In this document: in pieces, positions 3,997-24,727 of the stretch
Numbering within the stretch: the stretch's first letter is position 1
How the letters are laid out: the number at the start of each line of letters is the position of its first letter
IMG/VR virus record: IMGVR_UViG_3300032093_000630
Location: 1-28,962 of that record
Origin: a virus
Direction: 5' to 3' (one strand)
DNA length: 28,962 bases
Notes under the pieces: generated by a model
What the model saw: the letters and a program-made list of their open reading frames with translations, nothing else
Databases searched by the model: none
Told to the model about the DNA's origin: nothing
Position numbers and translations under genes: made by a program

Positions 3997-5209
3997 TGGT
4001 GAAATAACTTAAAGTGAAGTCTTGCTTTTCTTTTACCACAGCGTATATCTTATGCTCAATACCCCCTTCACTAAATACCCAATACACCTTTGCGGGTTCG
4101 GTTCTGTTAATACTCTGCATCCTTGCTCTTGCTTGCTGATAACTTACACTCGCAAAGTCTATGTTCAGCATCACAAGGGCATCGGCACTGCTTAGATTAA
4201 TACCTTCCCTGCCCGATTGTATCTGTGATACAAATATTTTATTACTGCTGCTGTTGAACAGGTGGGGGTCGGTTGTCAGGCTATCATAGCCGTAAGCCCA
4301 TTGCAGCATATTTAACTCGGATTTAAACTTATAAAATATGGCAATCTTCTTACCTCTGAAATAATCCCTTATAAACTCGGCTTTGCTTTTGTCAAAGCAT
4401 ATCCCTTCGCCATTCTCGCAAATCACCGTTCCGCTATATACCTGGTGGAGTTTGTTCATTAGCTTTACGGCTGTATCAGCTAATACCTCTTCACCGTTTT
4501 TTCCAATAAAGACCTTATCCCTGCGTAATTTTTCCACTAAAAAATAAGTGGATGGCTTCATTCTAATCGTTAATACTTCTTCTTCCACTTCCTGCTTAAA
4601 CCCCGCCTCTTGCTGTGTGTAGCTGATGAACAGATGCTTGGTGTCATCATCTATCTTTTTCTTATTGGCTTTGCTGTAATCATTAATACTTACTCCGTGA
4701 AAATATTTTTTACCTATCGTTACATAGTCGGCTGCCCACTTGTAAAATGTTTTGTACTCTTTAAATGGGCTGAAGCTGCTCACCCATAACTGATGGTACA
4801 ACTGGCTGTAACTCTCGGGGGTTGGTGTGCCGGACAGATATATAATCGGCAATCCCTCACATATCTCTTTTAGTCTTTTGGTTCGTTCTGATGGCTTGGG
4901 GAATGCACCTAATGAGTGCGCTTCGTCTATTATCACTATGTCAGGAGTGCCGGTGTAATTGTGCAGTTGCTCATAATTCAGCACAGATATTGCGCTTTCA
5001 CCTTCTGTCTTGGCATGGTCATCTAATATTGATGAGATTGCTTTTTTCTTTGTTACAAATAAAATATTGGTTGCCCCGTAGTTACGTGCCGTTGCCAGTG
5101 CCGTGAGTGTTTTACCAGTCCTCACTTCCATTGACAGGTAGGCTATTTTACACCACTCTAATAATTTAGCAGCATTGGTTGCAATGTCTATTTGGTAAGG
5201 TCTAAGCAT
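3953..5209 (-). CDS. Snf2-like SF2 DNA helicase / translocase
   Basis: A 418-residue superfamily 2 ATPase of the compact Snf2-like phage type. Helicase motifs in order are a Q-like LRPYQ at 2-6, Walker A EVRTGKT at 28-34, DEAH at 95-98, motif III YLSGTPTP near 125-132, and motif V SGREGINLSSAD. Motif VI is QQARARMQSINR, with the arginines expected to contact ATP. There is no extra nuclease or zinc domain. It is the first gene of the helicase-nuclease-primase unit and overlaps VRR-NUC by 44 bases. A terminator-like hairpin separates it from the ssDNA-binding gene upstream. Probable role: remodelling forks or recombination intermediates during phage replication; polarity cannot be read from the sequence. 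Confidence 0.9.
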   Translation of the reverse strand: MLRPYQIDIATNAAKLLEWCKIAYLSMEVRTGKTLTALATARNYGATNILFVTKKKAISSILDDHAKTEGESAISVLNYEQLHNYTGTPDIVIIDEAHSLGAFPKPSERTKRLKEICEGLPIIYLSGTPTPESYSQLYHQLWVSSFSPFKEYKTFYKWAADYVTIGKKYFHGVSINDYSKANKKKIDDDTKHLFISYTQQEAGFKQEVEEEVLTIRMKPSTYFLVEKLRRDKVFIGKNGEEVLADTAVKLMNKLHQVYSGTVICENGEGICFDKSKAEFIRDYFRGKKIAIFYKFKSELNMLQWAYGYDSLTTDPHLFNSSSNKIFVSQIQSGREGINLSSADALVMLNIDFASVSYQQARARMQSINRTEPAKVYWVFSEGGIEHKIYAVVKEKQDFTLSYFTNDRSATPVKDYQQV

Positions 5210-5217
5210 AGTTTTAT

Positions 5218-5246
5218 AAAAAAGCCCCGATAGTAACCCATCGGGG
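5218..5246 (-). terminator. Intrinsic terminator after the ssDNA-binding gene
   Basis: On the minus strand, a perfect 8-bp stem (GCCCCGAT with ATCGGGGC, at 5239-5246 and 5223-5230) with an 8-base loop is followed directly by five T residues. It lies between the stop of the ssDNA-binding gene (5255) and the start of the helicase gene (5209). It probably lets the binding protein be made in excess of the helicase, nuclease and primase, with partial read-through. Confidence 0.75.
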
Positions 5247-5254
5247 CATAGTGA

Positions 5255-5797
5255 TTAAAAGGGTACGTCATCTTCGTGAACCGCAGCAACTGGTGCTGCC
5301 GCACTTAGCAGCGATAACCAAAATCTCTCAAAGAACTCAAGCTGCTTTGAGTTATCATACACGGTTTTTCCTTTTAACTTTACCGTCTCCAACTGTGGCA
5401 ACTCACCCATATTATCCTTCGTCCATTTCCATTTAAGGGCATGACCCTCTTGATTGACGAAGATGGTGGTCTGTGGTTTGCCTTCCACCTGCTTGCTTGA
5501 TGCTATTAACTTCACCGGCACATCCACATTTGCATTAGCAATACTGTTGGTTAAGCCTCTGAAGTAACCGCTATCGGTACGCACCTGCACTAAGTACTTC
5601 TCATCACCGTCCTGCAATGTGAGCAGCAGCTTACGGAACTTAGTACCTTGATACTCGTCATCCTTAAACTCCACCCCTCTGATGATGCCATCCACCGCAT
5701 CAAATAACTCAATGTCTCCATTTGCGTTTTTACGGGCAAATTTGCCCTGTTTTAAGTTGAGGTAGGTAATCTTCCCACCTGTGTTAGATAAGCCCAT
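5255..5797 (-). CDS. Candidate phage single-stranded DNA-binding protein
   Basis: A 180-residue acidic/polar protein. The centre is beta-rich (GIIRGVEFKDDEYQG, FRKLLLTLQDGDEKYLVQV), and the protein ends in HEDDVPF, which closely resembles the conserved SSB tip DDDIPF that recruits replication partners. The C-terminal linker is short (SAAAPVAAV). Its place between a RecB-like nuclease and a helicase, and the terminator after it, fit an abundant ssDNA-binding protein. The OB fold itself is not evident by eye, so function rests on the tail and context. The start ATG at 5795-5797 lies 18 bases after the nuclease stop. Alternative: another replication accessory protein that borrows the SSB-type tip. 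Confidence 0.65.
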   Translation of the reverse strand: MGLSNTGGKITYLNLKQGKFARKNANGDIELFDAVDGIIRGVEFKDDEYQGTKFRKLLLTLQDGDEKYLVQVRTDSGYFRGLTNSIANANVDVPVKLIASSKQVEGKPQTTIFVNQEGHALKWKWTKDNMGELPQLETVKLKGKTVYDNSKQLEFFERFWLSLLSAAAPVAAVHEDDVPF

Positions 5798-5815
5798 AAT
5801 TAATCGCTGTTGCCT

Positions 5816-6574
5816 TTACACAGCAAGGTTTTTAAATTGGTAACTTAATTGATACGTTGTGCGCTTGGGTTTGGCTGTCTCATTCTCGGCAAGCCATAAT
5901 TGCTGTGTTGCCTTGAATAACTCCCAATCTTTGTCAGTATCTTCTTTGGTGATTAATTGCCACCCAATACCCTGCACCTGACCTTTCTTACCTTCCGTCC
6001 TTGTCTTGGCATTGAGCCATAATATCGCCACCTCATCTATCATGTTGTACCTGTGCATATCGGTGAGCAGTTGCTCATAAGCGGCTAACTGTAACCAGTA
6101 AGAAGCATACACAGCGTTAGAGGTCTTTATGTCCAACAGTATCTTCTTGCCATCCATCTCAATAATCCTGTCCAACGTACCTGCAAAGCCTAACTTCTCG
6201 GACACTATGTTCTGCTCTATCTCTATAATGTCAAACTTGTACCTTGTTCTAAAATCAACATACCGTTCAAACATTGCCCACTCATTTAGCTTATAGGCTA
6301 TGTACCCGTTCTCATCCATCAACTGCACCTCTTCGCCTCTGTCGTAAGCCTCCGTCAGCTTATGCACCACACTCCCCCTGCGCCCCGCTTCATCACGTAT
6401 GGCATCGCTGTCCTCTCCGTTCTTCTTCAGCCACTCATAATAAGCTGCGCCCTTTGGGTATGCTTCCAGTATTGTTGTTACGGATGGCACATAGCCACCG
6501 TTGTCTGTTGCGTAAAACCTGCTGTCCAAAAAAGTCATCTGCTTATTGGGCAGGTCAATGATAAAATTGTTCAT
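5816..6574 (-). CDS. RecB/Cas4-like PD-(D/E)XK exonuclease
   Basis: A 252-residue nuclease of the RecB-like PD-(D/E)XK group, often annotated in phages as exonuclease. The signature residues are all present: H71 in GSVVHKLTEA, D135 in GTLDRI, D148 and K150 in LLDIKTS, and the Q162-x3-Y166 pair in LQLAAY, which defines the RecB branch. No Fe-S cysteine cluster like that of Cas4/AddB is seen. It probably resects DNA ends for recombination together with the ssDNA-binding protein encoded next. Its start lies 20 bases inside the DnaA-like gene (6555-6574), so the two are translationally coupled. Confidence 0.88.
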   Translation of the reverse strand: MNNFIIDLPNKQMTFLDSRFYATDNGGYVPSVTTILEAYPKGAAYYEWLKKNGEDSDAIRDEAGRRGSVVHKLTEAYDRGEEVQLMDENGYIAYKLNEWAMFERYVDFRTRYKFDIIEIEQNIVSEKLGFAGTLDRIIEMDGKKILLDIKTSNAVYASYWLQLAAYEQLLTDMHRYNMIDEVAILWLNAKTRTEGKKGQVQGIGWQLITKEDTDKDWELFKATQQLWLAENETAKPKRTTYQLSYQFKNLAV

Positions 6575-9382: not shown

Positions 9383-9607
9383 ATGTTGTGCGGTAACTGC
9401 AAATATTGGATCCATAGTGGAGATAGAGTTAAAGCCTTTGATGATTGTCATTATACTTCAAGATTAGGTAAATGCTCTAACCCTGTTGTTAAAGATTTGG
9501 TGTTTGCTGTTCCTAAAGAAAAAGCTGCGGTAGTCATTTTACAACACTCAAACGAATTTGATGAATCATTTGGCTGCATCTATCACGAAAAATCAGATTC
9601 TCACTGA
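9383..9607 (+). CDS. Small Cys-rich (zinc-ribbon-like) protein
   Basis: 74 residues from ATG 9383 (a TTG lies one codon earlier). It starts MLCGNCKYW, with further cysteines in DDCHY, GKCSNP and FGCIYHEK. The spaced CxxC-xW ... C ... GxCxN ... GC-xxHE pattern suggests a small metal-binding fold, seen in many short phage proteins of unknown role. It is the first gene after the iteron-like array, and its end overlaps the sigma-like gene by 47 bases. No enzymatic motif is visible. Function is unknown; a role in protein or DNA interaction is only a guess from the likely zinc site. Confidence 0.7.
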   Translation: MLCGNCKYWIHSGDRVKAFDDCHYTSRLGKCSNPVVKDLVFAVPKEKAAVVILQHSNEFDESFGCIYHEKSDSH

Positions 9608-10283
9608 ATTTTATAATTCAGCTAACCTATGTAAAATGCTTGCCAAGTTTGATGCTGGAGCAGGGCAACAAGACCTCAAATCTGAATTATTCTTAGTCCT
9701 TTGCTCCCAACCTGAAGAAAAAATACAAGACCTCCACTGCAACAACCAACTGATATACTTCGCCACCGGGATAGTCCAACGGATGATATTCCAAAAGTCA
9801 GGCAAGTTTAACAGAACCTACCGCAAAACAAATGTTGAGTTCAACGATGAATTAGACACTTCAACAGAAGATTACGACACCGAAAGAGATCAGAAAGAAA
9901 CCAAAGTAAAAGATTCGATTGAAAAAGACCTGCATTGGGTTGAATCCTCTATGTTGAGTATTTACTTAGAGAAAGGCTCTATTTACAGAGCAGCCAAAGC
10001 CACCGGCATAAGTCAAGACCAGGTAGGCCGAATCTTAAAAAATGCAAGACGAAAATTAAAGACGGGTATGGAAGGCAAGTTAATCGGCAATTACATTGTG
10101 GGTAGTTTGGAAATCGTTTTAGATGTACAGGAAAATGTAAATCCTGAAAACGTTTTAGACATCATGGATGATGTGATGGAGTTTATCAAGTACAAACTTG
10201 AATCCAGTAACATCCCAAGTAAGTCAAGTGCTGGAGCATTCATCAAAGAAGTGAAACCTTTTAAAATCACTAAAATAGTATGA
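9561..10283 (+). CDS. Sigma-70-like transcription factor
   Basis: 240 residues from ATG 9561. The layout suggests a small sigma factor. An N-terminal helical part resembles region 2 (DLKSELFLVLC, LIYFATGIVQRMIFQKSG). An acidic linker follows (NDELDTSTEDYDTERD). A helix-turn-helix then resembles region 4 (MLSIYLEKGSIYRAAKATG, ISQDQVGRILKNARRKLK). The C-terminal 80 residues are not assigned. It precedes the packaging and virion genes, so it may direct host RNA polymerase to late promoters (inference). It overlaps the Cys-rich gene upstream and the next start (ATGA, 10280-10283). It could instead be a plain HTH regulator, since region 2 is weakly conserved. Confidence 0.62.
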   Translation: MNHLAASITKNQILTEFYNSANLCKMLAKFDAGAGQQDLKSELFLVLCSQPEEKIQDLHCNNQLIYFATGIVQRMIFQKSGKFNRTYRKTNVEFNDELDTSTEDYDTERDQKETKVKDSIEKDLHWVESSMLSIYLEKGSIYRAAKATGISQDQVGRILKNARRKLKTGMEGKLIGNYIVGSLEIVLDVQENVNPENVLDIMDDVMEFIKYKLESSNIPSKSSAGAFIKEVKPFKITKIV

Positions 10284-10492
10284 CCGCAATAGCCGCAGCA
10301 TTAACAGCGTGGATATTTATTCACGTATTACGGATGCCTGAACGATGGAAACTGAACTTTAAACCGTTTAACTGTGGGTTGTGTTTAAGTTTTTGGTTGG
10401 CGGTAATTCTATACTTCTGCCCTACTTATTTTGTAAACTTTTTATTCACCGTAACATTAGCAGCATCAATAGGCGCATGGCTCGAAAAGTAA
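10280..10492 (+). CDS. Small membrane protein with CxxC-FW motif
   Basis: A 70-residue, strongly hydrophobic protein with an N-terminal helix (AIAAALTAWIFIHVL), a short basic loop (RMPERWKLNFK) and two further hydrophobic segments, the first opened by NCGLCLSFW. The Cys pair at the membrane edge is conserved in a set of small Bacteroidota phage membrane proteins. It is too small and generic to name: a holin is possible, but no endolysin is encoded nearby. The start overlaps the sigma-like gene stop, and the end overlaps the next gene by 16 bases. Confidence 0.6.
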   Translation: MTAIAAALTAWIFIHVLRMPERWKLNFKPFNCGLCLSFWLAVILYFCPTYFVNFLFTVTLAASIGAWLEK

Positions 10493-10704
10493 CACATCTA
10501 ACTAACAAAGACAAGTTCAAAGAACTTGAACCACACTGGGCAACGGTACGATTAGGCTACCTGCGGGAAATACCAATGGAAGTAAAAAAAGAGATTGAAA
10601 GTATATACAAGAGTGAAATAGATTCTACATTCTTTGCCAACTATTACTGTAAAGGATGCTTTTATAACATCATTGAAAGACTGATAAGATTTTACGATTT
10701 ATGA
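10477..10704 (+). CDS. Hypothetical protein with C-terminal CxxC
   Basis: 75 residues from ATG 10477, in the compact series between the membrane protein and the first glycosyltransferase. The body is basic and helical (NKDKFKELEPHWATVRLGY, EVKKEIESIYKS) and the end carries YYCKGCFYNIIERL, a possible metal or redox pair. The frame is open further upstream (to 10381), but only inside the preceding gene, so the ATG is chosen. It overlaps the preceding gene by 16 bases and the following one by 4. No family was recognised. Confidence 0.6.
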   Translation: MARKVTHLTNKDKFKELEPHWATVRLGYLREIPMEVKKEIESIYKSEIDSTFFANYYCKGCFYNIIERLIRFYDL

Positions 10705-11342
10705 CACATGATATTTTTTGTGCTGTTTATACGCATCAGTCTAAAAGATATTGCGATGACATTTTTTTCAATTCATTATTAACGAATATAGATGGCGATT
10801 GTGTGCATGTGATAGACAACAGCAACGACAGCCAAAGATATTGCAACTCCATAAAGGAAAGGTTTAAATTAAAATTTGTAGAGAATTTAGACATACCGAT
10901 ACATCCGCAACAAACAACCTTCCACAGAAAAGTTACTGAATCCGTATCCTATTTACGAAAAATGTTTTTAACAACAGAATGTAAATATTTTTTGATTGTT
11001 GAAAGCGATGTGATACTCACCAACCAAAACACGGTAAAAACATTGGTAAGCACAATTGAAAACTTACCTGCCAACACAGGGGCTGTTGGTGCATTGTATT
11101 ACGAAGGCTTCCATGATTACACCTTAACAGGAGTTCAGCAAGTGCCGCATGTGTTATCGGGTTGTACGCTTTACAAAAGAGAACTGATTGAAAAGTACCC
11201 ATTCAGATATGACCCCGACAATTTAATACCTTTCCCCGATGCCTGGATTTGTATTGATGCCAAGCATGAATTTTCTTTTTATAACAATCACGAACTTATT
11301 TGCACACACGCACACACTAAAGATGGAACAAGATACATTTAA
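10701..11342 (+). CDS. GT-A (family 2-like) glycosyltransferase
   Basis: 213 residues with a GT-A layout. An N-terminal nucleotide-binding strand and loop (IFCAVYTH, VHVIDNSNDSQRY) comes first. A DxD-like ESDV site (101-104) follows CKYFLIV. A downstream acceptor-side segment reads VLSGCTLYKRELIEKYPF and then PFPDAWICID. It probably moves a sugar from a nucleotide-sugar donor; donor and acceptor cannot be read. It is the first of four overlapping genes for sugar and methyl transfer (10701-13080) placed between the early regulatory genes and terminase. Possible targets are a virion protein or a host surface glycan. It has no membrane segment, so it acts in the cytoplasm. Confidence 0.72.
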   Translation: MTHDIFCAVYTHQSKRYCDDIFFNSLLTNIDGDCVHVIDNSNDSQRYCNSIKERFKLKFVENLDIPIHPQQTTFHRKVTESVSYLRKMFLTTECKYFLIVESDVILTNQNTVKTLVSTIENLPANTGAVGALYYEGFHDYTLTGVQQVPHVLSGCTLYKRELIEKYPFRYDPDNLIPFPDAWICIDAKHEFSFYNNHELICTHAHTKDGTRYI

Positions 11343-11844
11343 AACAAAAGTAATCAACAGTGAAAATCCTTATGAACACTGGAATGACATTTCAGATTTG
11401 TACGGTAAGACTGTACTTGATTTGGGATGCGGTTGGTTGTGGCAACCTCACGAATGCACTCCTGAATACTTTATCAAACGGGGCGCATCCAAAATAGTGG
11501 GTGTAGATGTAACGCAACCCGAATTAGACACGTTGTCTAAGTTATACCCCAACGATACCTTTCTCTGCTTGAATATTACAAAAGCTGAACAACTGCAAGA
11601 ACTGATAAGTCAATACTCCCCCGATGTTATAAAAATGGATATTGAGGGTAATGAATTGGTTTTAAATGAACTTCAGGATTTAGGCACAGCAACTGAAATA
11701 GCAATAGAATACCACAGCCAAGAATGCAAAATAGTTGTACTAAACAAATTAAAAGAGTTTGGTTTTAAAATATTTGCAATCAACAAATTCGGTTATCACT
11801 GTTTAGATGACAATATTATGGGGGTAATACATGCAAGAAAATAA
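11323..11844 (+). CDS. FkbM-family SAM-dependent methyltransferase
   Basis: 173 residues from ATG 11323. SAM-binding motif I is TVLDLGCG (30-37), IVGVDV (58-63) binds the ribose edge, and IKMDIEGNE (103-111) is the hallmark of FkbM-type (Methyltransf_21) enzymes, which usually O-methylate sugars or glycan-like natural products. That suits its position between two glycosyltransferases: it may cap or mark a phage-made glycan. The frame is open upstream to 11239, but that part is inside the previous gene. The chosen ATG gives a normal N-terminus and a 20-base overlap. It overlaps the next gene by 14 bases. Confidence 0.8.
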   Translation: MEQDTFKTKVINSENPYEHWNDISDLYGKTVLDLGCGWLWQPHECTPEYFIKRGASKIVGVDVTQPELDTLSKLYPNDTFLCLNITKAEQLQELISQYSPDVIKMDIEGNELVLNELQDLGTATEIAIEYHSQECKIVVLNKLKEFGFKIFAINKFGYHCLDDNIMGVIHARK

Positions 11845-12388
11845 CATCAGTACAACAGGTTTTTGGGAAGCAAGCACAGCCCACTTGCATCACATTCATA
11901 GCTTAGAACTAAGCCAGTGGCTTTGTGATTTCTTAGACAAAAACACAAGGGTTGTAGATTTTGGTTGTGGGTTAGGATTTTATCTATCCGAATTGCAAAA
12001 AAGCGGGTTTACTAATTTGGTAGGTTACGAAGGCATGATACCCGAAAAACAATTATTTGAAAATATTATTTCACACGATCTCACTAAGCCAATCAAAGAA
12101 AGCGGCAATGTTATTTGTTTGGAGGTGGGCGAACATATCCCGGCTGAATACGCAGGCGTATTCATAGATAACTTATGTAATACCTGCACCCACTATTTAA
12201 TTTTATCGTGGGCTGTAAGAGGGCAGCCAGGCAGAGGCCACGTGAATTGCTTAGACAACCACGAAGTTGTTGAACTGATAGAAAAGAAAGGATTGATTTA
12301 CAGCCCTAAAAAAACAAAAGCAGCAAGAAGCGTTATTAACGAAAATACTTATTGGTTTAAAGACACGTTACTAATATTTGAAAAGTGA
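11831..12388 (+). CDS. Class I SAM-dependent methyltransferase
   Basis: 185 residues. Motif I is VVDFGCGLG (41-49), followed by a post-I acidic loop in LVGYEGM. Motif IV-like ICLEVGEHIP precedes a helix, and GHVNCLDNHEVVELIEKKG follows, as in Methyltransf_11/23-like enzymes. The N-terminus (GFWEASTAHLHHIHS) is of the type seen in methyltransferases of sugar-modification clusters. The substrate is unknown, but the overlapping neighbours argue for the same pathway as the FkbM enzyme. The stop overlaps the next start (GTGA, 12385-12388). Confidence 0.78.
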   Translation: MQENNISTTGFWEASTAHLHHIHSLELSQWLCDFLDKNTRVVDFGCGLGFYLSELQKSGFTNLVGYEGMIPEKQLFENIISHDLTKPIKESGNVICLEVGEHIPAEYAGVFIDNLCNTCTHYLILSWAVRGQPGRGHVNCLDNHEVVELIEKKGLIYSPKKTKAARSVINENTYWFKDTLLIFEK

Positions 12389-13080
12389 TTTCTATTTACA
12401 CCATAGGCTACAATGAGGAACTTTTAGCACAGTTCTTTATTAATCATTACAAAAGTAATTTCCCCGATTGTAAGATTACTTTGTTTGATAATTGCAGCAC
12501 GGACAAAACAAAAGACATATTTGAAAGCAACGGATGCAAGGTCGAAAACTTTGACACTGGGGGGCTGATAAACGAAAACGAGTATCTAAGAATAAAAAAC
12601 AACTGTTGGAAACAATCGGCAACAGATTGGGTTTTAATCTGCGATATTGACGAAATACTCCATATCAACCAACACGAGTTACTGGCAGAACATCAAAAAA
12701 GCGTATCTATAATAAGAACAGAAGCATACGAAATGTACAACAGCTTGCCATACATAGACATAGAAAACATGAAACACGGTGTAAGGCTGCCCATTTACGA
12801 CAAGTCAATACTATTCAACAAACAAAAGATAAAACAAATCAATTACAGTGCCGGATGCCACACTTCAAACCCTGAAGGCGATGTGTTGTATTCGGAAAAC
12901 AAATATAAAATGCTGCACTATAAAGGGCTAAGTGAAGATTACGTTGTAGCAAGACACAAGGAATTTGCGGAAAGATTAAGCGATGAGAACAAAAAAAACA
13001 ACTGGGGCAGTCATTATTTAATACCCGAAAAAGAATTGAGGCTGAATTACAGGAACATAAAAACAGAAAAGGTTATTTGA
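12385..13080 (+). CDS. Family 2 glycosyltransferase (GT2_4-like)
   Basis: 231 residues from a GTG start coupled to the previous stop. The N-terminus ISIYTIGYNEE and DNCSTDKTKDIF (35-46) form the donor-binding part. The metal-binding DxD plus conserved Glu is CDIDEIL (86-92). A C-terminal histidine-containing segment (MLHYKGLSED) and the adjacent ARHKEF helix match the GT2_4 pattern of LPS/O-antigen-type enzymes. It is the last gene of the four-gene cassette; terminase begins 2 bases after its stop. No signal or membrane segment is visible. Donor and acceptor are unknown. Confidence 0.82.
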   Translation: MISIYTIGYNEELLAQFFINHYKSNFPDCKITLFDNCSTDKTKDIFESNGCKVENFDTGGLINENEYLRIKNNCWKQSATDWVLICDIDEILHINQHELLAEHQKSVSIIRTEAYEMYNSLPYIDIENMKHGVRLPIYDKSILFNKQKIKQINYSAGCHTSNPEGDVLYSENKYKMLHYKGLSEDYVVARHKEFAERLSDENKKNNWGSHYLIPEKELRLNYRNIKTEKVI

Positions 13081-13081
13081 T

Positions 13082-13537
13082 ATGGCAAACCAATACAGAG
13101 ATATAGACCCTGTTGAATTGCAGGACATGGCAGATAAGTATTGTGATTATTGTATTGAATCAACTAAAGAAGTACCAACAGTAAAAGGTGCAATCAAGAT
13201 AAAAGAAAGACACTTGCCAACCGTTAATTATTTTTTACTGCATTGGTTGAGACGGCAGCACTTTGATTTCTACAAAAGAACGAATTGGTACGATGCAATG
13301 AAGAAGCAAGAACATCCATTATCGAACACTATAAAAAGCATAGACGAGCAATTTAAAGCACTGGCAGAGGATATTGTAGCCAACGAAGGCAAGGGAATAT
13401 TCTACGCTAAGAACAGGTTAGGAATGACCGACAAAGCAGAAAATAAAAACGATACAACATACAGGCTCATTGATGAATCAGACACAGGACATAAAACTAC
13501 CAATACCACACGAAGCGCAGCATCAGATTCTTTCTGA
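13082..13537 (+). CDS. Terminase small subunit (predicted)
   Basis: 151 residues immediately before the large terminase, overlapping it by 65 bases. The body is helical and charged. A C-terminal segment, GIFYAKNRLGMTDKAENK, resembles the (I/F)xLKNR-like motif common in phage small terminases, and the tail is disordered (TTNTTRSAASDS). An N-terminal HTH is not obvious, although the VPTVKGAIKIKERHLPT part could be the DNA-recognition insert. Call rests on position and the tail motif. It should recognise the packaging site and feed DNA to the motor. Confidence 0.7.
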   Translation: MANQYRDIDPVELQDMADKYCDYCIESTKEVPTVKGAIKIKERHLPTVNYFLLHWLRRQHFDFYKRTNWYDAMKKQEHPLSNTIKSIDEQFKALAEDIVANEGKGIFYAKNRLGMTDKAENKNDTTYRLIDESDTGHKTTNTTRSAASDSF

Positions 13538-14648
13538 AGCCAAACGTTTTAACGTGCTTGATTGTGGCAGACGGTGGGGCAAATCAGTACTGGCATCAAG
13601 AATACTCATAAGGTCAGCATTTAACAGATTTCCAACAGCTTATTTTGCACCTACCTATAAACTTTTAGAAGGAACATTTAACGAAGTTTATCAGCGAGTA
13701 GAACCGATGACAGTAAAGAAACACGATAACCAATTCATTCAGTTGGTTGGCGGTGGTGCGATTGAATTTTGGAGCATGGAAAACCCGTTAGCAGGTCGTT
13801 CCCGTAAATACAAAGTAGTTATCATTGACGAAGCAGCCTTTAATAAAAACCTTTGGCAATCATGGACAGAAGCCATCCGCCCTACCCTTACCGATTTAAA
13901 AGGTGATGCGTGGTTTATGAGTACACCTAAAGGCAAAAATGATTTTTATAAGTTCTTCATGCGTGGAAAGTCAGGCGAAGAAGGTTGGATGAGTTGGCAG
14001 ATGCCGACCTCCACAAATCCGCATATTGATATTTCAGAGATAGAAGCAGCACGAAAAGACTTACCTGAACTTGCATTTAGTCAGGAGTATTTAGCCGAGT
14101 TCAATGATAACGTTGCCAACCCGTTTGGTTACAACTTTATTAAACTCTGTACTATGCCGATGAGTAAAGAGCCGCCTGTGTGCTATGGTATTGATTTAGC
14201 GAAAAGCCAAGACTGGACGGTCATCATCGGATTGGATAAATTCGGGCAGGTGTGTTACTTTGACCGCTTTCAAAAAGACTGGATGGCAACGAAAGGCGAA
14301 ATTCTTAACCTGCCGAAAGCTCCTTGCCGGATAGACAGTACAGGTGTTGGAGATCCTATCGTGGAAGAAGTGCAGAAGAATAGGCAAGATGTGTACGGGG
14401 AAAAATACACCCGTTGGAGTAAGCAGCAGTTAATGGAAGGGCTGGCAGTAGCGATTCAGCAGAGGAAAATAACATTTCCTGAAGGTATAATAACCGATGA
14501 ACTTACTTCTTTTGAATACGAGTACACAAGAACAGGAACAGTGTACACCGCACCGCCTGGACTGCATGATGACTGTGTAAATGCGTTGGCGATGGCGTGG
14601 AAGCAGTATAAAGATTCAAGTACCAATTTTAAGTATGTATTTATATGA
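13473..14648 (+). CDS. terL: Terminase large subunit
   Basis: 391 residues: the packaging motor ATPase and nuclease. Walker A is CGRRWGKS (31-38) and Walker B is VVIIDEAA with D119 and E120. The coupling motif is MSTPKGKN. The RNase H-like nuclease follows with D241 in YGIDLAKSQD, D288 in RIDSTGVGD, and HDDCVNALAMAW with D366/D367. All key residues are intact. ATG 13473 is used; a TTG one codon upstream is less likely. It overlaps the small subunit by 65 bases and the next gene by 4 (ATGA). Confidence 0.95.
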   Translation: MNQTQDIKLPIPHEAQHQILSEAKRFNVLDCGRRWGKSVLASRILIRSAFNRFPTAYFAPTYKLLEGTFNEVYQRVEPMTVKKHDNQFIQLVGGGAIEFWSMENPLAGRSRKYKVVIIDEAAFNKNLWQSWTEAIRPTLTDLKGDAWFMSTPKGKNDFYKFFMRGKSGEEGWMSWQMPTSTNPHIDISEIEAARKDLPELAFSQEYLAEFNDNVANPFGYNFIKLCTMPMSKEPPVCYGIDLAKSQDWTVIIGLDKFGQVCYFDRFQKDWMATKGEILNLPKAPCRIDSTGVGDPIVEEVQKNRQDVYGEKYTRWSKQQLMEGLAVAIQQRKITFPEGIITDELTSFEYEYTRTGTVYTAPPGLHDDCVNALAMAWKQYKDSSTNFKYVFI

Positions 14649-15456: not shown

Positions 15457-16101
15457 ATGCCGAGTATAGCACAAGCACTAGCCAAGTTATTAGGCGGTGA
15501 TTTCTTAGATACATTGGGAGACGAGCAAACAGCCGCACCGAAATTAAACACGGTGGAGGCTATGATTGCTTTGTATGCAGAGGAATTTATAAACAAGGCG
15601 AAGGATAATTTAAACGCAAGCAACACCACACAAACGGGGAAATTAGAAAGCTCCATCCGCTTTGAAACTAAAACATTGGGCAGATCGTACAAGCTCACTC
15701 TATTCGTTGCTGATTATTACGACTACATCAATCAAGGGGTGAAAGGTGTAAAAGGTTCACAGAATACCCCTTACAAGTTTAAGTTCATCAACCCATCTAA
15801 AACACACGTTGAGGCCATACGAAAGTGGATGCGTGAAGGCAGAAAGAAAATACAGGTATCAGATATTAAGTATGGTAAAACAAAACAGGAATCCAAAGCA
15901 ATCGACCCGGTTAAAAAAGAGCGGCAGTTAGCGTATTTAATAGCGAGGTCAATTAAAAGAAAAGGTATCACAGGAACAGGATTTTGGACGAAAGCATTTG
16001 ATTCAACCTTTGCAGATTTTGGACAACAAATGTCCAAAGCATTAGGCGAGGATATAAAGATTGATTTGAGAAACATGGTTAAACGAATAAAGAAGAAATG
16101 A
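15457..16101 (+). CDS. HK97 gp10-like neck or tail completion protein
   Basis: 214 residues, basic at the C-terminus (MVKRIKKK). The segment QTGKLESSIRFETK followed by FVADYYDYINQGVKG and later GFWTKAFDSTF matches the general pattern of HK97 gp10-like proteins (TGxLxxSI ... YAxxxExG ... PFMxxA). Those proteins link head and tail or finish the tail. It directly follows a terminator and an AGTATTTATA box, so it may begin a new transcript of virion genes. It overlaps the next gene by 4 bases (ATGA). The family match is at the level of motif order, and position before tail genes supports it. Confidence 0.6.
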   Translation: MPSIAQALAKLLGGDFLDTLGDEQTAAPKLNTVEAMIALYAEEFINKAKDNLNASNTTQTGKLESSIRFETKTLGRSYKLTLFVADYYDYINQGVKGVKGSQNTPYKFKFINPSKTHVEAIRKWMREGRKKIQVSDIKYGKTKQESKAIDPVKKERQLAYLIARSIKRKGITGTGFWTKAFDSTFADFGQQMSKALGEDIKIDLRNMVKRIKKK

Positions 16102-17228
16102 GTATTACGATTAAGAGTACCCCCGATGATTTCAGTTCAGCACATGAAGAACTGTGGCACGTTGTAGATTCAACCAATAAGAACGGAGACGGGTTTAGAT
16201 ATGTGTTTGACATTTACAAAGACGGTGATATAATTACAAGAGTAAAGAGTGAGCCGTTTGGTACTGATAAGTACGGAGTGATAAACGTGGGTACTATTGT
16301 CCGTTCTACTTTAGATTCCTGCGAGTTAGGCGGCTTTGACATTTATTCCCAAGATGCAGAGTTCACAATGAATACAGATGTTTTCTTTACTGACTACCAA
16401 TTAAGGTACGGGGAGGATGCAAGCGGTGTAATCACTTCTAATTTAGCATCGGGTAATTTCAGGGCATACAACAACTACACAAGATTAAACTTTGAAAAGT
16501 TAGATACCTCTTTAAGCAGTGGGGTTATAATAACTTCCAATAGGCCGACTACTTTAAAATCTTATACAGATTCATTAAGTATATTCCACCCGGTTGTTTT
16601 TTCGCACAGGTTAAACACTGGTGTTAATTACAGGCGGGAGTTTAGATATGCTGACAATTCAACAGAAACAAGGGATGTGTTTGGAAGTGGGCAATGTATT
16701 GTTTTCCCTGTAACAAATACATTATGCAACAGGTTAAGAATTATTAATCAAGATACAAGCGCAGTTATCAAGACTTATGAGATAGAGAATAAGTGTACCA
16801 AATACGAATGCTTTACGCTTGTCTTTCTAAATGCTTTTGGCGGCTACGATTCGTTTACGTTTGTCAATGGTGTATTAATGCAGACAGGCGAAAAGAAATC
16901 GTTTGAAAAACAACGATGGAAGCTGGACGGGTTTACAATGAAGGAAAAATTGTATTCGGGTATCTACAATGAATCTATAATGACTTACGCCAACATGATT
17001 AAGTCAAAAATGAAACTAACATCTGATTTTCTTAGTACGGAAGAATACGCATGGTTAGCAGAGTTGGTTAATTCGCCTTTGGTGTACCTTCTTAGACCGG
17101 GGCAGGATTTAATCCCAGTTAAAATAACCAATACAGACTACGAGTTTACAAACAGCTTACAGAATAAGGCTAAGTTGTTGGAAGTGGAAATAGAATTTGG
17201 CATCGTTAAAAACTCACAATTTAGGTAA
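16098..17228 (+). CDS. Tail structural protein (unnamed Bacteroidota phage family)
   Basis: 376 residues, beta-rich throughout, with few long helices until the end. Notable segments are TLVFLNAFGGYDSFTF near the centre and LVNSPLVYLLRPGQDLIPV near the C-terminus, followed by a strand-rich close. That composition suits a tail-tip, distal tail or adaptor protein. It is encoded between the gp10-like protein and a larger 670-residue tail protein, and overlaps both by 1-4 bases. No enzymatic motif. The precise role is not assignable by eye; a distal tail-type component is the favoured inference. Confidence 0.55.
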   Translation: MSITIKSTPDDFSSAHEELWHVVDSTNKNGDGFRYVFDIYKDGDIITRVKSEPFGTDKYGVINVGTIVRSTLDSCELGGFDIYSQDAEFTMNTDVFFTDYQLRYGEDASGVITSNLASGNFRAYNNYTRLNFEKLDTSLSSGVIITSNRPTTLKSYTDSLSIFHPVVFSHRLNTGVNYRREFRYADNSTETRDVFGSGQCIVFPVTNTLCNRLRIINQDTSAVIKTYEIENKCTKYECFTLVFLNAFGGYDSFTFVNGVLMQTGEKKSFEKQRWKLDGFTMKEKLYSGIYNESIMTYANMIKSKMKLTSDFLSTEEYAWLAELVNSPLVYLLRPGQDLIPVKITNTDYEFTNSLQNKAKLLEVEIEFGIVKNSQFR

Positions 17229-19240
17229 TGTATCAACTATTCGTAGAAAACCAGGAAGTAGATATTGACGAGAAAATAGGCATACAGTTGAGTTATGCCA
17301 TAGATGATATTGCACGTTTTGCAAACAGAGATACTTCTTTTAGCAAGCAGATAGTTTTAAAAGGAACAAACAGAACGAACAACGCTTTAGGTTTAATCTT
17401 TGAATTGGGCAATGCAAACCCCTATGTAATCGGTCAAAGGAACATCGGCAAGAATTTTAATGTAGCACAAACAGCAAGAGCCGAGTTAAGACTTTACGGG
17501 TTGCAGGTTTTAAAAGGTGTATTTAGACTGATAGGTATTCAAAGGACAAGAGATATTATAGAATACGAAGGTGTTTTATTTGGCGAATTAGGCGGTTTGA
17601 TTGCTGCTATCTCAAACAAAAAAATAGAAGAATTAGACTTTGGTGCTTACGACCATGTTTTCAATACGACAAACATCACAGCGAGTTGGGATGCAGTACA
17701 AGGTTCAGGATATTTTTACCCGTTGATTGATTACGGCACTTACTCAAGCAACAAAGTAGATTATGACATTCGCACTTTAAGACCTGCGTTTTATGTAAAA
17801 GAATACTTAGATAAAATATTTGAGGATGCAGCCTATGAATACGAGTGCGACTTTTTTGACACTGCAAGGTTTAAGAGTTTTATCATTCCGAACAACACAA
17901 AAGAATTAAAGTCAGCCGGGCAAAGATTACTGGAGGCAGAAGATACCGATGTGGCGATTACTATTCCCGCAGGAAGTAAATTCTATTTGGACTACGATAA
18001 TATTATCAACAACTCATTCATACAGATTAATTCTTCCACGTTTGAGTTTGACAGTCCTGTTTCTATACCTGCAAAGATTCGGGTTTCAATTACAGCAAGC
18101 GGTTCAGGTATTCCCAACGTATCAATTAACGTAGAAAAGAACGGGTTAAGGTTAAACGGTATTATTGTAGGTTTTGCTTCTGCTTCGACCTTTGAAACAC
18201 AGACCACTTTAGTAGATGGCGATGTGATAAGAATCTACTACCAAAACCAAGACCCGTTTAATGCAAGAAGTTTTAATATTTCAGCTAATACGCTAAACAT
18301 AATTTCTACAACAGATATACAAGTTCCCGTAAGTGTAGGCGATACCATAAGAGTAAACGACACTATTCCAAAAGGAATCTTTCAGCGAGACTTCTTAGCC
18401 TCTATTTTAAAGATGTTTAACCTGTACGTGGTTGAGGATAGGATAGAAGAAAAAAGGCTTATCATCAAACCATACATAGATTTTTATTCAGGCGAAAATG
18501 TGGATTGGACGTACCAGGTAGCAAGAGATAAAACGTGGAACATCATGCCGATGGGTAATCTGAACGGCAGAATCTTTGAATACAAGTATAAAGAGGACAG
18601 CGATTTCTACAACGATGAATACCGCAAGAAATACAATATTACCTACGGGTCAAGGCAGTTTGATACTGGATTCCAATTCTCTAAAGACCGACAAACAACC
18701 GATGTAATATTTGCAGGTAGCCCACTGATAAAGTATTCAGGAACAGACAAAACACTGACCGCAATCTATAAAAAGTCAAAAGGTAATTCAGTAGATCAGG
18801 AAGAATTGACCGAATCCGTATTAAGAATACTCACTTGCAAGAAAATAACAGGTGTTACAAGTTGGAAAATCAAAAACGGTGTTTCAGACTTAGCGACTAT
18901 CACAAATTACGGTTATGCCGGGCATTTGGATGACCCCACTACCCCAACGTTTGATTTGAACTTTGGCGCACCCAATGAGATATACTGCGACCCCGACCAG
19001 TACACATCGAATAATCTATTTAACGTTTACTGGAGTTCTTACATCGCAGAGATAGCAGATAAAGATTCCAAGCTGTTAAAGTGCCATGTGTACTTAAGGC
19101 CAATTGACATTGCTAAGTTAAATTTCTCTAAAGATGTATTTATTGACGGGGTACGGTTCAGGATAAATAAGATTGACGATTACGATGGTTTGAATAACGA
19201 ATTAACAAGAGTAGAACTTTTAAAAGTGATAAATGGCTAA
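17228..19240 (+). CDS. Large tail protein (hub / tail-tip candidate)
   Basis: 670 residues. The N-terminus is MYQLFVENQEVDIDEK, then DTSFSKQIVLKGTNRTNNALG, a sequence style common to large tail proteins of Bacteroidota phages. A middle beta region (SVGDTIRVNDTIPKGI, then DFLASILKMFNLYVVED) resembles hub-like folds, and the C-terminal part has repeated Asp/Tyr-rich strands. No hydrolase motif was identified. It overlaps the upstream stop by a single base and the tape measure start by 8 bases. Size and location fit a baseplate hub or tail-tip protein, but host-range function is not shown. Confidence 0.55.
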   Translation: MYQLFVENQEVDIDEKIGIQLSYAIDDIARFANRDTSFSKQIVLKGTNRTNNALGLIFELGNANPYVIGQRNIGKNFNVAQTARAELRLYGLQVLKGVFRLIGIQRTRDIIEYEGVLFGELGGLIAAISNKKIEELDFGAYDHVFNTTNITASWDAVQGSGYFYPLIDYGTYSSNKVDYDIRTLRPAFYVKEYLDKIFEDAAYEYECDFFDTARFKSFIIPNNTKELKSAGQRLLEAEDTDVAITIPAGSKFYLDYDNIINNSFIQINSSTFEFDSPVSIPAKIRVSITASGSGIPNVSINVEKNGLRLNGIIVGFASASTFETQTTLVDGDVIRIYYQNQDPFNARSFNISANTLNIISTTDIQVPVSVGDTIRVNDTIPKGIFQRDFLASILKMFNLYVVEDRIEEKRLIIKPYIDFYSGENVDWTYQVARDKTWNIMPMGNLNGRIFEYKYKEDSDFYNDEYRKKYNITYGSRQFDTGFQFSKDRQTTDVIFAGSPLIKYSGTDKTLTAIYKKSKGNSVDQEELTESVLRILTCKKITGVTSWKIKNGVSDLATITNYGYAGHLDDPTTPTFDLNFGAPNEIYCDPDQYTSNNLFNVYWSSYIAEIADKDSKLLKCHVYLRPIDIAKLNFSKDVFIDGVRFRINKIDDYDGLNNELTRVELLKVING

Positions 19241-20888
19241 AGAAGTAATTGGCGGGGAAGTCGTCATAGAATATAAATCGGTAGGCGAGTTACGCAAAGC
19301 GATTAAAGAGGCAACAGGTGATGTTATTAAGATGCAGCAACAATTTGGGGCTACATCTAAAGAAGCATTAGCAGCCGCCAAACGAGTAGCCGAATTAAAA
19401 GACCGTGTTAAAGAAGCAGGCGAAGTAGCTGCACTGTTCGACCCAGGTAATAAGTTCAAAGCAATTGGCAATGCAGTAACAGGACTTGCAGGAGGTTTCA
19501 CAGCTTTAACTGGCGCAATGGGTGTATTAGGTATTAAGTCAGAAGATACCGAAAAAGCACTGTTAAGAGTTCAATCCGCTTTAGCATTAACACAGGGTTT
19601 AAGTACGATTGCCGATGCGGGTAAAGACTTTGGAAGATTAGCAAGCATTATTAAAGGCCCGGTAATAGCAGCGTTTACCACTCTTAGAGGTGCGTTCATG
19701 GCTTTAGGCATTGGATTGATTACAAGTGCCATTGCTTTTCTGATTACCAATTTTGAGAAAGTTAAAAACGTTATCTACGATTTATTCCCTGCTACAAAAG
19801 GTTTGTTTGATAACATGGATAGAATCAAACAAATAGCAATGGGTGTAGGTAATGCTATTTTAAAATTTGTATTAGCTCCTGCAAAGGCTTTAATCAAATT
19901 AGTACAAGGTGATTTTCAAGGGGCTTTAGATGCAGTAAAAGAAAGCATCCAGTTTACTAAAAACTTTAGGGAGGGCGAAAGTAAAGAGATAAAGAGCCAA
20001 GCCGATGAAAGGGAGGCGGCAAGGCAGGAAGAATTAAGGAAAGAACGTGAAAAAAACAAAGGTAAGTTAGAAGAACAAAGACGGGCAGCAGCAGAAAGGG
20101 AAAAAGAAAGAGCGGCAGAAAGAGAACGAATAAGAAAAGAGGAAGAAGAAGAAGATAGGCAAAGGCTAATAAGAATGTGGAAGGCTGCGGTGGAGCGAAT
20201 GGAAATGTTTAAAAAAGTTCGTAACGACATTTCAACAGAAGAAGATTTTGGAAGGGAAGAAAGAAGAACAAGAGAAGCTGAATCGTATGCTAAATGGTTG
20301 GAGGACAGAAAGGCTCAAAGGGAGAAAGAAAAGCAATTAGAGTTAGATTATAACCATGCTTTGAAACAAGCAGAGATTGATTTGCAGAATGCAAAATTTG
20401 AGGCAGCCTCCGCAGGTTTAAATCTGCTTGCAAGTTTAGCAGGTAAAAACAAAGCACTTCAAAACACTTTGTTTGCTTTGGATAGGGGTTTGGCTATTGC
20501 AAAAGTTGTTATTGATACGCAAAAAGAAATTGCAGGTTACTATTCAAACCCTACATGGTCATTACTTCCTGATGGTGGTCTTGCCTTAAAATCAGCAGCC
20601 GCATTAAAAGCTAAAATAAGAGCAGGTGTAAGCATCGCTACAATAGCAGCCGCATCCATTCAGAAGTTTATGAATGGCGCAAGTGCAGGCGCAGGTAATG
20701 CAGGAGGTGGCGGTGGTGGAGTATCACCATTAACTCCTGCCCTATCACCACAAGCACAGGCCACAAGTTTAAACGCTGCTGCAATTAACAATTTAGGGAA
20801 TAACGCAATCAGAGCGTATATATTAAATGCAGACATACAGAATCAGAATCAGATAAACGATATTTTAAAAAGAAACAGTACCATATGA
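19233..20888 (+). CDS. Tape measure protein
   Basis: 551 residues. It has an N-terminal helical section (VGELRKAIKEATGDVIKMQQ), a hydrophobic Gly/Ala part with two likely membrane segments (AAFTTLRGAFMALGIGLITS), and a long charged coiled coil (about residues 240-390, dense in Lys, Arg and Glu). A Gly-rich stretch (NAGGGGGG) precedes the end, which has the polar RAYILNADIQNQNQINDIL. This organisation is that of tape measure proteins, which set tail length and enter the host envelope. By the rule of thumb of about 1.5 angstrom per residue, the tail would be near 80 nm. It overlaps both neighbours by 4-8 bases. Confidence 0.85.
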   Translation: MAKEVIGGEVVIEYKSVGELRKAIKEATGDVIKMQQQFGATSKEALAAAKRVAELKDRVKEAGEVAALFDPGNKFKAIGNAVTGLAGGFTALTGAMGVLGIKSEDTEKALLRVQSALALTQGLSTIADAGKDFGRLASIIKGPVIAAFTTLRGAFMALGIGLITSAIAFLITNFEKVKNVIYDLFPATKGLFDNMDRIKQIAMGVGNAILKFVLAPAKALIKLVQGDFQGALDAVKESIQFTKNFREGESKEIKSQADEREAARQEELRKEREKNKGKLEEQRRAAAEREKERAAERERIRKEEEEEDRQRLIRMWKAAVERMEMFKKVRNDISTEEDFGREERRTREAESYAKWLEDRKAQREKEKQLELDYNHALKQAEIDLQNAKFEAASAGLNLLASLAGKNKALQNTLFALDRGLAIAKVVIDTQKEIAGYYSNPTWSLLPDGGLALKSAAALKAKIRAGVSIATIAAASIQKFMNGASAGAGNAGGGGGGVSPLTPALSPQAQATSLNAAAINNLGNNAIRAYILNADIQNQNQINDILKRNSTI

Positions 20889-21466
20889 CACTACCAATAT
20901 TTGAATTAAGAATAAGCGAAGATGAAAACAGTGAAAGGGGAGTAAACGCTGTTGCATTAGTAGATAAACCCGCTATCGGTGAGGGTTTCTTTGCATTTGA
21001 TAAACAGGAAAGATTCGCAGTAGTAAGCGAAGATGAAAGGATTGTTGTCGGCCCGGCTATGATTCCCAATATGCTTATTTACCGTCAAGACCCTGACGGT
21101 TCGGAGTACAACGTAACCTTTTCTGCTGAAACCATACAAGCGATTGCAGAGAAATTCTTTGCTAAGAACTTTCAGAAGAACGGAAACGAAATGCACGATG
21201 AAACAAAACCTGTTGATTTGGTATTCTTTCAGAGTTGGATAGCGGACGAGAATAAAGGTATTCCTAAGATGAAACAGTTTGAACATTTACCCGATGGTAC
21301 TTGGTTTTTGGGTGCGAAAGTAAAAAGCGATAACACTTGGGCAGATGTAAAGAACGGCACGTTTAAAGGTTTTAGTGTAGAGGGATATTTTGAAATGAAA
21401 CCCTTAAAAATGAGAACAGAGGAAAGTACACTGAATTTAATAAAAACACTTTTAAAAGATTATTAA
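20885..21466 (+). CDS. Capsid maturation protease, XkdF/S78_2-like
   Basis: 193 residues matching the putative serine-protease family of phage capsids (XkdF, Peptidase_S78_2). In order: VNAVALVDKPAIGEGF, then RIVVGPAMIPNMLIYR, EYNVTFSAETIQAIAEKF, a catalytic-type histidine in MHDETKPVD (H104), LVFFQSWIADENKG, GTWFLGAKVKSDNTW and the nucleophile-type GFSVEGYF (S164). It should trim scaffold and capsid proteins during head assembly. It starts ATGA-coupled to the tape measure gene and precedes a glycosyltransferase, then the assembly and capsid genes. Confidence 0.85.
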   Translation: MTLPIFELRISEDENSERGVNAVALVDKPAIGEGFFAFDKQERFAVVSEDERIVVGPAMIPNMLIYRQDPDGSEYNVTFSAETIQAIAEKFFAKNFQKNGNEMHDETKPVDLVFFQSWIADENKGIPKMKQFEHLPDGTWFLGAKVKSDNTWADVKNGTFKGFSVEGYFEMKPLKMRTEESTLNLIKTLLKDY

Positions 21467-21479
21467 TTACTAATACAAC

Positions 21480-22505
21480 ATGAAAATACTCGCTTTAGGT
21501 CATCGTTTCTCCGGCTGTTTCTATCATCGCATTTGGCTTCCTTCTATGTTAATGGAAGGCAAAGAACGTGCAAGAGTAACCGATACCATCACAGAAGATA
21601 CATTTAAAGAAAGATGGGATATTGTTTTTGTAAACCGAATGTGGGCAAAAGATGATCTATTTAAACTACGAGATGAGTACGGATTCAAACTCGTACTTGA
21701 TATGGACGATTACTGGGTACTTGACCACCATCACATGGACTACGACCATTACACAGATGGAGGTTATGATGTAAAAGTAACCCAACACTTGCGAAAAGCA
21801 GATTTAGTTACCTGCACACATGAAAGATTAGCAGAACGCATAAGACCCTATAATGAAAATGTTGTTATTTGCCCTAATGCCATACCCTACGGATTTGGGC
21901 AGTACATTGACCAGGTAGAACCAACCGAAAAGATAAAACTCTTTTGGGCGGGTGGTATTTCTCACGAACTGGATTTAAAAGTAATAGCCGACCCTATGAA
22001 AAAACTTTTTCCTCACATAAAGGATAAGGTAAAATGCTACATCGGAGGCTATGCTGATGGGAATCCTTACGAAGCAGGTATTTGGGGGAAGATGGCTGAT
22101 TATTTTATGTACAACGGTAACTATGATGGAACAGCTTTACGAGGTATGCCAGTAGATGAGTATTATCAACTGTTCTCCTATGCCGATATTATGCTGATAC
22201 CTTTAAAGAAAAGTAATTTCAATCAGTACAAATCGAATCTGAAAATATTAGAAGCAGCAGGAAAAAGAATTCCGGTGGTAGTGAGTGCAGTACACCCCTA
22301 TCTTGGATTTCCTGAAGATTTAGTAAACTATGCTTCAGATAGTCAGATGTGGATTCATTGGGTTAATAAATTAGTCAATGACAAAGGATTCCGATTAGAG
22401 CAAGGCGAAAGGCTATACGAATACTGCAAAACACACTACAACTTTTTTGAGATTAACAAAAAAAGACAGGAAGCGTTTACTTCTTTGATTCCTGTAAATA
22501 CTTAA
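21480..22505 (+). CDS. GT-B fold glycosyltransferase inside the head module
   Basis: 341 residues, with GT-B layout: an N-terminal Rossmann half (MKILALGHRFSGCFYHRIW, LVLDMDDYWVL, VICPNAIPYGF) and a C-terminal half (KLFWAGGISHELDLK, FSYADIMLIPLKKS, then LKILEAAGKRIPVVVS) holding the donor-binding, E-containing motif typical of GT4-like enzymes. It is placed between the capsid protease and the assembly protein, 13 bases from the former. Such a position suggests the acceptor could be a virion protein (inference). It has no membrane anchor or signal peptide. Confidence 0.8.
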   Translation: MKILALGHRFSGCFYHRIWLPSMLMEGKERARVTDTITEDTFKERWDIVFVNRMWAKDDLFKLRDEYGFKLVLDMDDYWVLDHHHMDYDHYTDGGYDVKVTQHLRKADLVTCTHERLAERIRPYNENVVICPNAIPYGFGQYIDQVEPTEKIKLFWAGGISHELDLKVIADPMKKLFPHIKDKVKCYIGGYADGNPYEAGIWGKMADYFMYNGNYDGTALRGMPVDEYYQLFSYADIMLIPLKKSNFNQYKSNLKILEAAGKRIPVVVSAVHPYLGFPEDLVNYASDSQMWIHWVNKLVNDKGFRLEQGERLYEYCKTHYNFFEINKKRQEAFTSLIPVNT

Positions 22506-22576
22506 AATACTATATTTTCAAAATTTCCTGAAAGTTTAAATGCGGCTATTTAATAGGGTTGGGTATTTATGCCTGT

Positions 22577-23116
22577 ATGAACCCAATAGAAACATTAAAA
22601 CAGATAAAGGCTATCGTTTTTAACGAAGCCCCTGCACCAGTTGCAGAGCCTGTGCAATTCAGCGATTATCAATTAGCTGACGGCACTATTGTTTCAATAG
22701 ACAAATTAGAAGTGGGCGGCATGGTAAAGATTGCCGATGCTCCTGCTCCTGCCGGTTCTCATACACTTGCTGATGGTACTGTAATAGAAGTAAGCGAAGG
22801 CGGTTTAATTGCTGCCGTAACTGCTCCTGTTGCTGAAGAACCTGCAAGTGAAGATATGAGTTCAAAGTTTGCAGCTATTGAAGCTAAGTTCTCCGCTTAC
22901 GAATCGCAATTCGCACAAATCACAGAAGCACACAACAATTTAAAAACTGCTTTTGAAAAGCAAAACGAAGCCATGCAAGGGCTTGTGAGTTTAGTTGAAA
23001 CACTCGTAAAAGAGCCTTCAACAGAACCAAGCGTTGCGCCTACAAGTGGTTTTCGTGCATTCACAGAAACAAAACAAGACAAATTAAATAACGTACTCAA
23101 ACTTTTTAAAAACTAA
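22577..23116 (+). CDS. Head assembly / scaffold-like protein
   Basis: 179 residues from ATG 22577 (a TTG start at 22559 would add six residues and is less likely). After MNPIETLKQIKAI come two beta modules that both contain LADGT (33-37 and 64-68), separated by Ala/Pro linkers (APAPVAEP, APAPAG). A long helical coiled-coil segment follows (roughly 92-145), then SVAPTSGFRAF and a basic end. The coiled coil, the disorder and the position directly before the capsid gene fit a scaffold or capsid assembly protein, probably cleaved by the protease encoded two genes upstream. The beta modules are unusual for a plain scaffold. Confidence 0.65.
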   Translation: MNPIETLKQIKAIVFNEAPAPVAEPVQFSDYQLADGTIVSIDKLEVGGMVKIADAPAPAGSHTLADGTVIEVSEGGLIAAVTAPVAEEPASEDMSSKFAAIEAKFSAYESQFAQITEAHNNLKTAFEKQNEAMQGLVSLVETLVKEPSTEPSVAPTSGFRAFTETKQDKLNNVLKLFKN

Positions 23117-23119
23117 GAA

Positions 23120-24091: not shown

Positions 24092-24096
24092 TTATC

Positions 24097-24125
24097 GGGG
24101 AGGTAACACTCCCCTTAACCTTTTA
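24097..24125 (+). terminator. Hairpin after the major capsid gene
   Basis: GGGGAG (24097-24102) pairs with CTCCCC (24109-24114) around GTAACA, followed by TTAACCTTTT. The T tract is interrupted, so this is a weak terminator or an mRNA-stabilising hairpin. It could separate high capsid expression from downstream genes. Confidence 0.5.
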
Positions 24126-24135
24126 AATTAAAAAA

Positions 24136-24654: not shown

Positions 24655-24682
24655 TTTTCATGTTGATTTTAGGAGTAAGACA

Positions 24683-24713
24683 CCCTGCCTTTTTAGGTGG
24701 GGTTTACTTTTTA
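24683..24713 (+). terminator. Intrinsic terminator after the tail-tube candidate
   Basis: CCCTGCC (24683-24689) pairs with GGTGGGG (24696-24702) around TTTTTA, with two wobble pairs, then TTTACTTTTT. An outer stem of GTAAG (24675-24679) with TTTAC (24703-24707) can extend it. It is followed by the AGTATTTATA box and the next gene. Confidence 0.6.
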
Positions 24714-24723
24714 AGTATTTATA
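24714..24723 (+). promoter_or_regulatory. AGTATTTATA box before a virion gene (copy 2)
   Basis: Same decamer as at 15444-15453, placed after a terminator T run and ending 4 bases before the ATG at 24728. The recurrence in the same context suggests a function in late expression rather than chance. Confidence 0.35.
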
Positions 24724-24727
24724 GACG

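Follow-up and report, generated by a model that had tools for sequence, protein, structure and literature searches.

The cassette and its operon

What do four overlapping genes for sugar and methyl transfer make in a tailed phage, and on which surface does their product end up? The genes in question lie in the window, which is the whole stretch of DNA analyzed here: an entire linear record of viral DNA, 28,962 bases long and a fragment of a tailed phage, for which a megablast search of public phage records gave no close match. The phage probably infects Bacteroidota, judging solely from a homolog of the first cassette gene (g1) in a Chitinophaga prophage. A preliminary description had read the four genes as co-translated and likely acting on one product, with a methyl-capped glycan on virion proteins or a changed host surface polysaccharide as the main ideas. 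Our analysis indicates that the cassette is most likely a swappable locus for a coat glycan, a new arrangement of a type of phage gene set that is already known. The cassette is real and not due to chance, and its comparative setting is more informative than the four genes alone. The genes concerned are the following.

9558..10283, + strand: sigma-like protein at the head of the operon, upstream flank of the slot (TIGR02937, E 0.0019, below cut-off; conserved upstream of the slot)
10280..10492, + strand: o70, small hydrophobic protein, conserved upstream flank (by synteny; maximum KD19 1.93)
10477..10704, + strand: small protein with a 4-base overlap with g1 (ORF listed as 10381-10704, likely ATG at 10477; conserved in L002-L009)
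10701..11342, + strand: g1, predicted GT-A-fold (GT2-like) glycosyltransferase of a nearly phage-specific family (213 aa; from a fold model)
11323..11844, + strand: g2, provisionally a class I SAM methyltransferase, FkbM-like (173 aa from the ATG at 11323; VLDLGCGW and KMDIEGNE motifs)
11831..12388, + strand: g3, class I methyltransferase, Methyltransf_23 (185 aa; PF13489, 28.4 bits, above the cut-off of 27)
12385..13080, + strand: g4, Glyco_tranf_2_4 glycosyltransferase (231 aa, GTG start; PF13704, 31.1 bits, above the cut-off of 27.5)
13082..13537, + strand: TerS, downstream flank of the slot (PHROG 606, E 0.0018; synteny in relatives)
13470..14648, + strand: TerL, downstream flank of the slot (PF03237/PF17289 over cut-off)
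21480..22505, + strand: GT4, GT-B-type (group 1-like) glycosyltransferase in the head module (PHROG 7162, E 5e-60; PF13524/PF13692 weak, below cut-off)

All four reading frames of the cassette, described earlier as overlapping by 4 to 20 bases between 10701 and 13080, are present and intact on the + strand; the overlaps are 20 bases (g1/g2), 14 bases (g2/g3) and 4 bases (g3/g4). The spacing is equally tight from the sigma-like gene through TerL: the small gene upstream overlaps g1 by 4 bases, and a gap of 1 base separates the end of g4 from TerS. Translational coupling of the cassette genes is plausible, but it is not special to these four. Because tightness is a property of the whole operon, the overlaps alone do not show that the genes serve one product, and we rejected them as proof of it. 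The replication genes of the window form a separate module on the opposite strand.

Three further features of the operon were observed. The weakly sigma-70-like protein that heads this late operon is kept in relatives and is a possible regulator of late genes. The order of the structural genes (15457-27041) is unusual, in that tail-type genes, including a tape-measure-like ORF, separate the terminase from the head module of protease, capsid and portal. The portal protein (25101-27041) carries a C-terminal extension in which a winged-helix HTH_24 match lies just above the Pfam cut-off.

Enzymes encoded by the cassette

The g1 protein has no family match in Pfam or PHROG. An AlphaFold (AF2) model built on seven homologs reached moderate confidence (pLDDT 68.5, pTM 0.75). 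Foldseek matched this model to 5ggi (E 1e-6) and, with E about 1e-6, to protein O-mannose GlcNAc-transferase among others. The model could be aligned with SpsA over 183 residues (VIA Z 11.9, rmsd 3.9 A) and with many GT-A enzymes at VIA Z 11-13. The residues E101-S102-D103 (ESD, a DXD-like acidic motif), D180 and H203 are invariant across the seven homologs. With the modeled fold and this motif, g1 is a predicted GT-A glycosyltransferase; since the similarity is at the fold level only, the presence of protein glycosyltransferases among the best matches is no firm guide to the acceptor. Only one of 246 sampled Chitinophagaceae genomes contains g1, and there the gene lies within a prophage.

Of the identities proposed earlier, the glycosyltransferase assignment of g1 thus stands on the model and those of g3 and g4 on curated family matches, while g2 falls below both curated FkbM cut-offs (TIGR01444, 19.3 bits, E 0.0012, cut-off 37.7; PF05050, 14.1 bits, cut-off 22.7). 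We call g2 FkbM-like only, because it has the KMDIEGNE motif but misses these cut-offs, and its enzyme class is assigned provisionally from sequence motifs. A fold computed from its single sequence (pLDDT 40) was too poor for use and was discarded. No close relatives of g2 occurred in the viral and phage collections searched. A search for g2 in 296 Bacteroidota genomes found no match, a result which shows little as the search had no positive control. Searches of phage records by tblastn with g1, g2 and g3 gave no match.

The further glycosyltransferase announced for the head module is present as GT4, between an XkdF-type protease gene and the probable major capsid gene; the position between protease and capsid recurs in L010. 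Neither g1-g4 nor GT4 has a clear membrane segment.

An exchangeable slot beside the terminase genes

The interval bounded by the sigma-like/o70 genes on one side and TerS/TerL on the other is called the slot here. Loci were retrieved via TerL and g1 and were then mapped gene by gene. Lineages were defined as TerL groups at 80% identity, three of which have a complete slot. Glycosyltransferase genes are present in every complete slot, that is in 17 relatives and the window, and the gene set differs from lineage to lineage. The comparison with related phages that the preliminary description had suggested therefore shows a slot that keeps glycan genes in changing sets:

Lineage A (L011-L028): GT4, a hexapeptide acyltransferase-type protein, GT2-like
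Lineage B (L002-L009): GT4, small protein, g1, class I methyltransferase, GT2-like
Window: g1, g2, g3, g4, with GT4 placed in the head module instead

The GT4 homologs thus sit in the terminase-side slot of L002-L028. A weak Glyco_transf_4-like gene is found upstream of the terminase even in the outlier L029. No match to TerL was found in 395 Bacteroidota genomes; this search, too, lacked a positive control and shows little. As a side observation, a single viral contig (49,966 bases) contains the late region with g1 twice, as L006 and L008; assembly may have joined two related phages here.

From this exchange arises a wider proposal, which we put forward tentatively and hold to be a little less probable than its opposite: phages of Bacteroidota may carry a dedicated locus for a coat glycan beside the terminase, in which sets of glycosyltransferase, O-methyltransferase and acyltransferase genes recombine and so give sister phages chemically different virion surfaces.

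Recurrence of the cassette parts in other phages

Relatives of g3 were found on 24 viral contigs (36-54% identity). In 18 of the 24 a g4 homolog lies near g3. In most of these a Methyltransf_24 gene separates the two and GT4 is close by, and the g3-g4 pair is nearly always accompanied by GT4 and a second methyltransferase. Including the window, the contigs with both genes form nine clusters at 80% g3 identity. The pairwise identities of g3 and g4 are correlated (r 0.84 over 36 pairs of cluster representatives), a descriptive value only, as the pairs are not fully independent. In L031 a g4-type glycosyltransferase and Methyltransf_24 are fused in one ORF. The companion methyltransferases in the relatives match families of sugar and small-molecule O-methyltransferases (RMNT_CmcI, TylF).

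Seven contigs carry the cassette a few genes upstream of a Terminase_3-type TerL. A cassette of the same kind in L045/L047 lies away from structural genes, next to a DNA methyltransferase-like gene in a region of early type, and in phapecoctaviruses GT4 homologs belong to a cluster of four glycosyltransferases beside replication genes (helicase, DNA polymerase). The notion that all such cassettes sit in structural modules was rejected on these grounds.

Two loci in this set deserve mention in their own right. L034 (7065-13488 of a 152-kb phage contig) is a large glycan cluster with a Polysacc_synt_2 sugar-nucleotide dehydratase, two g4 copies, a GT92-like enzyme and methyltransferases. The ORF of the g3 homolog in L043 (9317-10564) also has NUMOD3 and weak GIY-YIG matches, which suggests an inserted or fused homing element.

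The earlier claim of a single product can now be placed on other ground than gene overlap. The recurrence of g3 with g4 on 18 contigs and the fusion in L031 speak for joint action on one glycan, as do the parallels with the Chitinophaga prophage and mycobacteriophage Che8 described below.

Probable target of the proposed glycan

The explanation which we favor, at somewhat better than even chances, is that the cassette is a late-expressed, exchangeable unit that builds a methylated glycan on a virion protein. In this model g1, g4 and GT4 would work in the cytoplasm with nucleotide sugars of the host and assemble a short glycan on at least one virion protein. The g2 and g3 enzymes would O-methylate sugars of this glycan and so cap or diversify it, and the swapping of slot genes among related phages would furnish sister virions with different coats. 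A virion protein is favored as target because of the position of the cassette, the soluble, cytoplasmic-type enzymes and the Che8 parallel. The data show the enzyme classes (provisionally for g2), the position, the exchange of gene sets and the repeated co-occurrence of the parts. Late expression is suggested by gene order only, and we infer the protein acceptor, the identity of the sugars, the order of the steps, the capping role and the biological benefit. A survey of the structural proteins for Ser/Thr-rich C-terminal tails gave nothing striking and no candidate acceptor. The cassettes of L045/L047 and the phapecoctaviruses outside structural genes count against a virion glycan, as does the absence of significant similarity to Che8 proteins.

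The second target named in the preliminary description, the host surface, fares less well than the virion and is in our view unlikely. The cassette would alter surface polysaccharide during infection, for example by transferring methylated sugars onto precursors of the LPS core or capsule in the cytoplasm, with the proposed gain that other phages cannot attach or that released progeny are not trapped on debris. Homologs of g4 do occur in two Bacteroidota genomes, adjoining other glycosyltransferases in one of them; on contigs L034 and L054 such genes are paired with sugar-nucleotide dehydratase/epimerase or transketolase-like genes; and a survey of jumbo phages interprets variable clusters of glycosyltransferases and O-methyltransferases as a means of host-surface change (PMC7824862). 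However, a GtrA flippase was found neither in the window nor in 11 relatives with a search whose control was positive, and the family records searched gave no match to an integrase; all of these records are fragments. The four cassette enzymes also have no obvious membrane segments, and their position adjoining terminase and capsid suggests expression too late for polymers that are already exported.

It is improbable that the cassette hypermodifies phage DNA, with sugars added to a hydroxylated base and then modified by the methyltransferases as a protection from restriction. DNA glycosyltransferases are known in phages (literature cited in PMC12619734), the GT4 homologs of phapecoctaviruses adjoin helicase and DNA polymerase genes, and the distant relative L029 has 6-pyruvoyl-tetrahydropterin-synthase-type and GTP-cyclohydrolase-I-type genes (4847-6496) upstream of its terminase, possibly for a 7-deazaguanine DNA modification. 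But no thymidylate-synthase-type hydroxymethylase (PF00303) was detected in the window or 11 relatives, where the control was positive and the fragmentary records could miss a hydroxylase; the replication genes of the window are set apart on the opposite strand; and the companion methyltransferases resemble enzymes acting on sugars. A search for Tet_JBP (TET/JBP hydroxylase) gave no match, and none in the control genomes either.

About equally improbable is that the phage acquired these genes from host polysaccharide clusters as mere passengers (morons) that share no single product, a view with which the uniformly compact operon, the differing gene sets of even related phages and the isolated g2 would agree, but against which stand the glycosyltransferases in every complete slot seen, the pairing of g3 with g4 across divergent phages, the near absence of g1 from sampled host genomes and the four intact reading frames.

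Significance and comparison with known systems

The virion is thus the better supported of the two targets considered at the outset. If the product is on virions, phages outside Actinobacteria also wear methylated glycans of their own making, and gene exchange at a single fixed position alters the type of coat. Such a locus would offer a tractable system for the roles of virion glycans in the environment (adsorption, particle stability, diffusion), and many glycosyltransferase and methyltransferase genes of viromes that are now read as auxiliary metabolic would be reassigned. Our literature search found no paper on FkbM together with a phage glycosyltransferase as an auxiliary metabolic gene.

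The suggestion of an unreported pathway was too strong. According to the account in PMC12363180, virion glycosylation by phage-encoded glycosyltransferases has been published for mycobacteriophages (Che8 gp108-gp110, Corndog gp38; Freeman et al. 2023); that account reports glycosylated virion proteins in Che8, with gp110 being essential. The kind of system, phage-encoded virion glycosylation, is hence known, while its composition, position and modular exchange as seen here were not found described in the papers searched.

In the Che8 locus gp108 is a fusion of GT2 and TylF/Methyltransf_24, gp109 is GT2-like and gp110 is a GT25. Che8 and the window have in common small phage-encoded glycosyltransferases (in Che8 largely of GT-A type: GT2, GT25), an associated methyltransferase and overlapping genes. 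They differ in that the Che8 locus lies at the right genome end and the cassette beside the terminase, in that the window has two separate methyltransferases plus a GT-B-type enzyme, and in that virion glycans are reported for Che8, whereas for the window they are a prediction. A phmmer comparison of gp108, gp109 and gp110 with the window proteins was not significant (best gp110-g4, 8.3 bits, E 0.0032 in a set of 37 proteins), and none of the three matched any ORF of the fetched loci at E 1 or better. The parallel is one of enzyme kinds and not of detectable homology; distant homology may exist at the fold level.

Another parallel is found in a prophage of Chitinophaga sp. YR573, where the order is TerL, GT2-like, RMNT_CmcI/Methyltransf_24, g1 homolog, GT4-like, portal. 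As in the window, a g1 homolog (about 43%) occurs with GT4-like, GT2-like and sugar O-methyltransferase-type genes in a structural operon. Unlike in the window, the set of this unrelated prophage is inserted between terminase and portal, and the sequences of terminase and portal differ.

The cassettes of L031-L049 (g4, Methyltransf_24, g3, GT4) have g3, g4 and GT4 genes homologous to those of the window. Their order is g4-methyltransferase-g3 as opposed to g3-g4, and the window is without the Methyltransf_24 gene and has g1 and g2 in addition. With seroconversion modules of the gtrABC type the window shares phage-borne glycosyltransferases, but it differs from them: the searches gave neither GtrA nor an integrase, and no membrane glycosyltransferase is evident. 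If the interpretation as a coat-glycan locus is true, the slot would be comparable to an O-antigen locus, but one that serves the virus particle.
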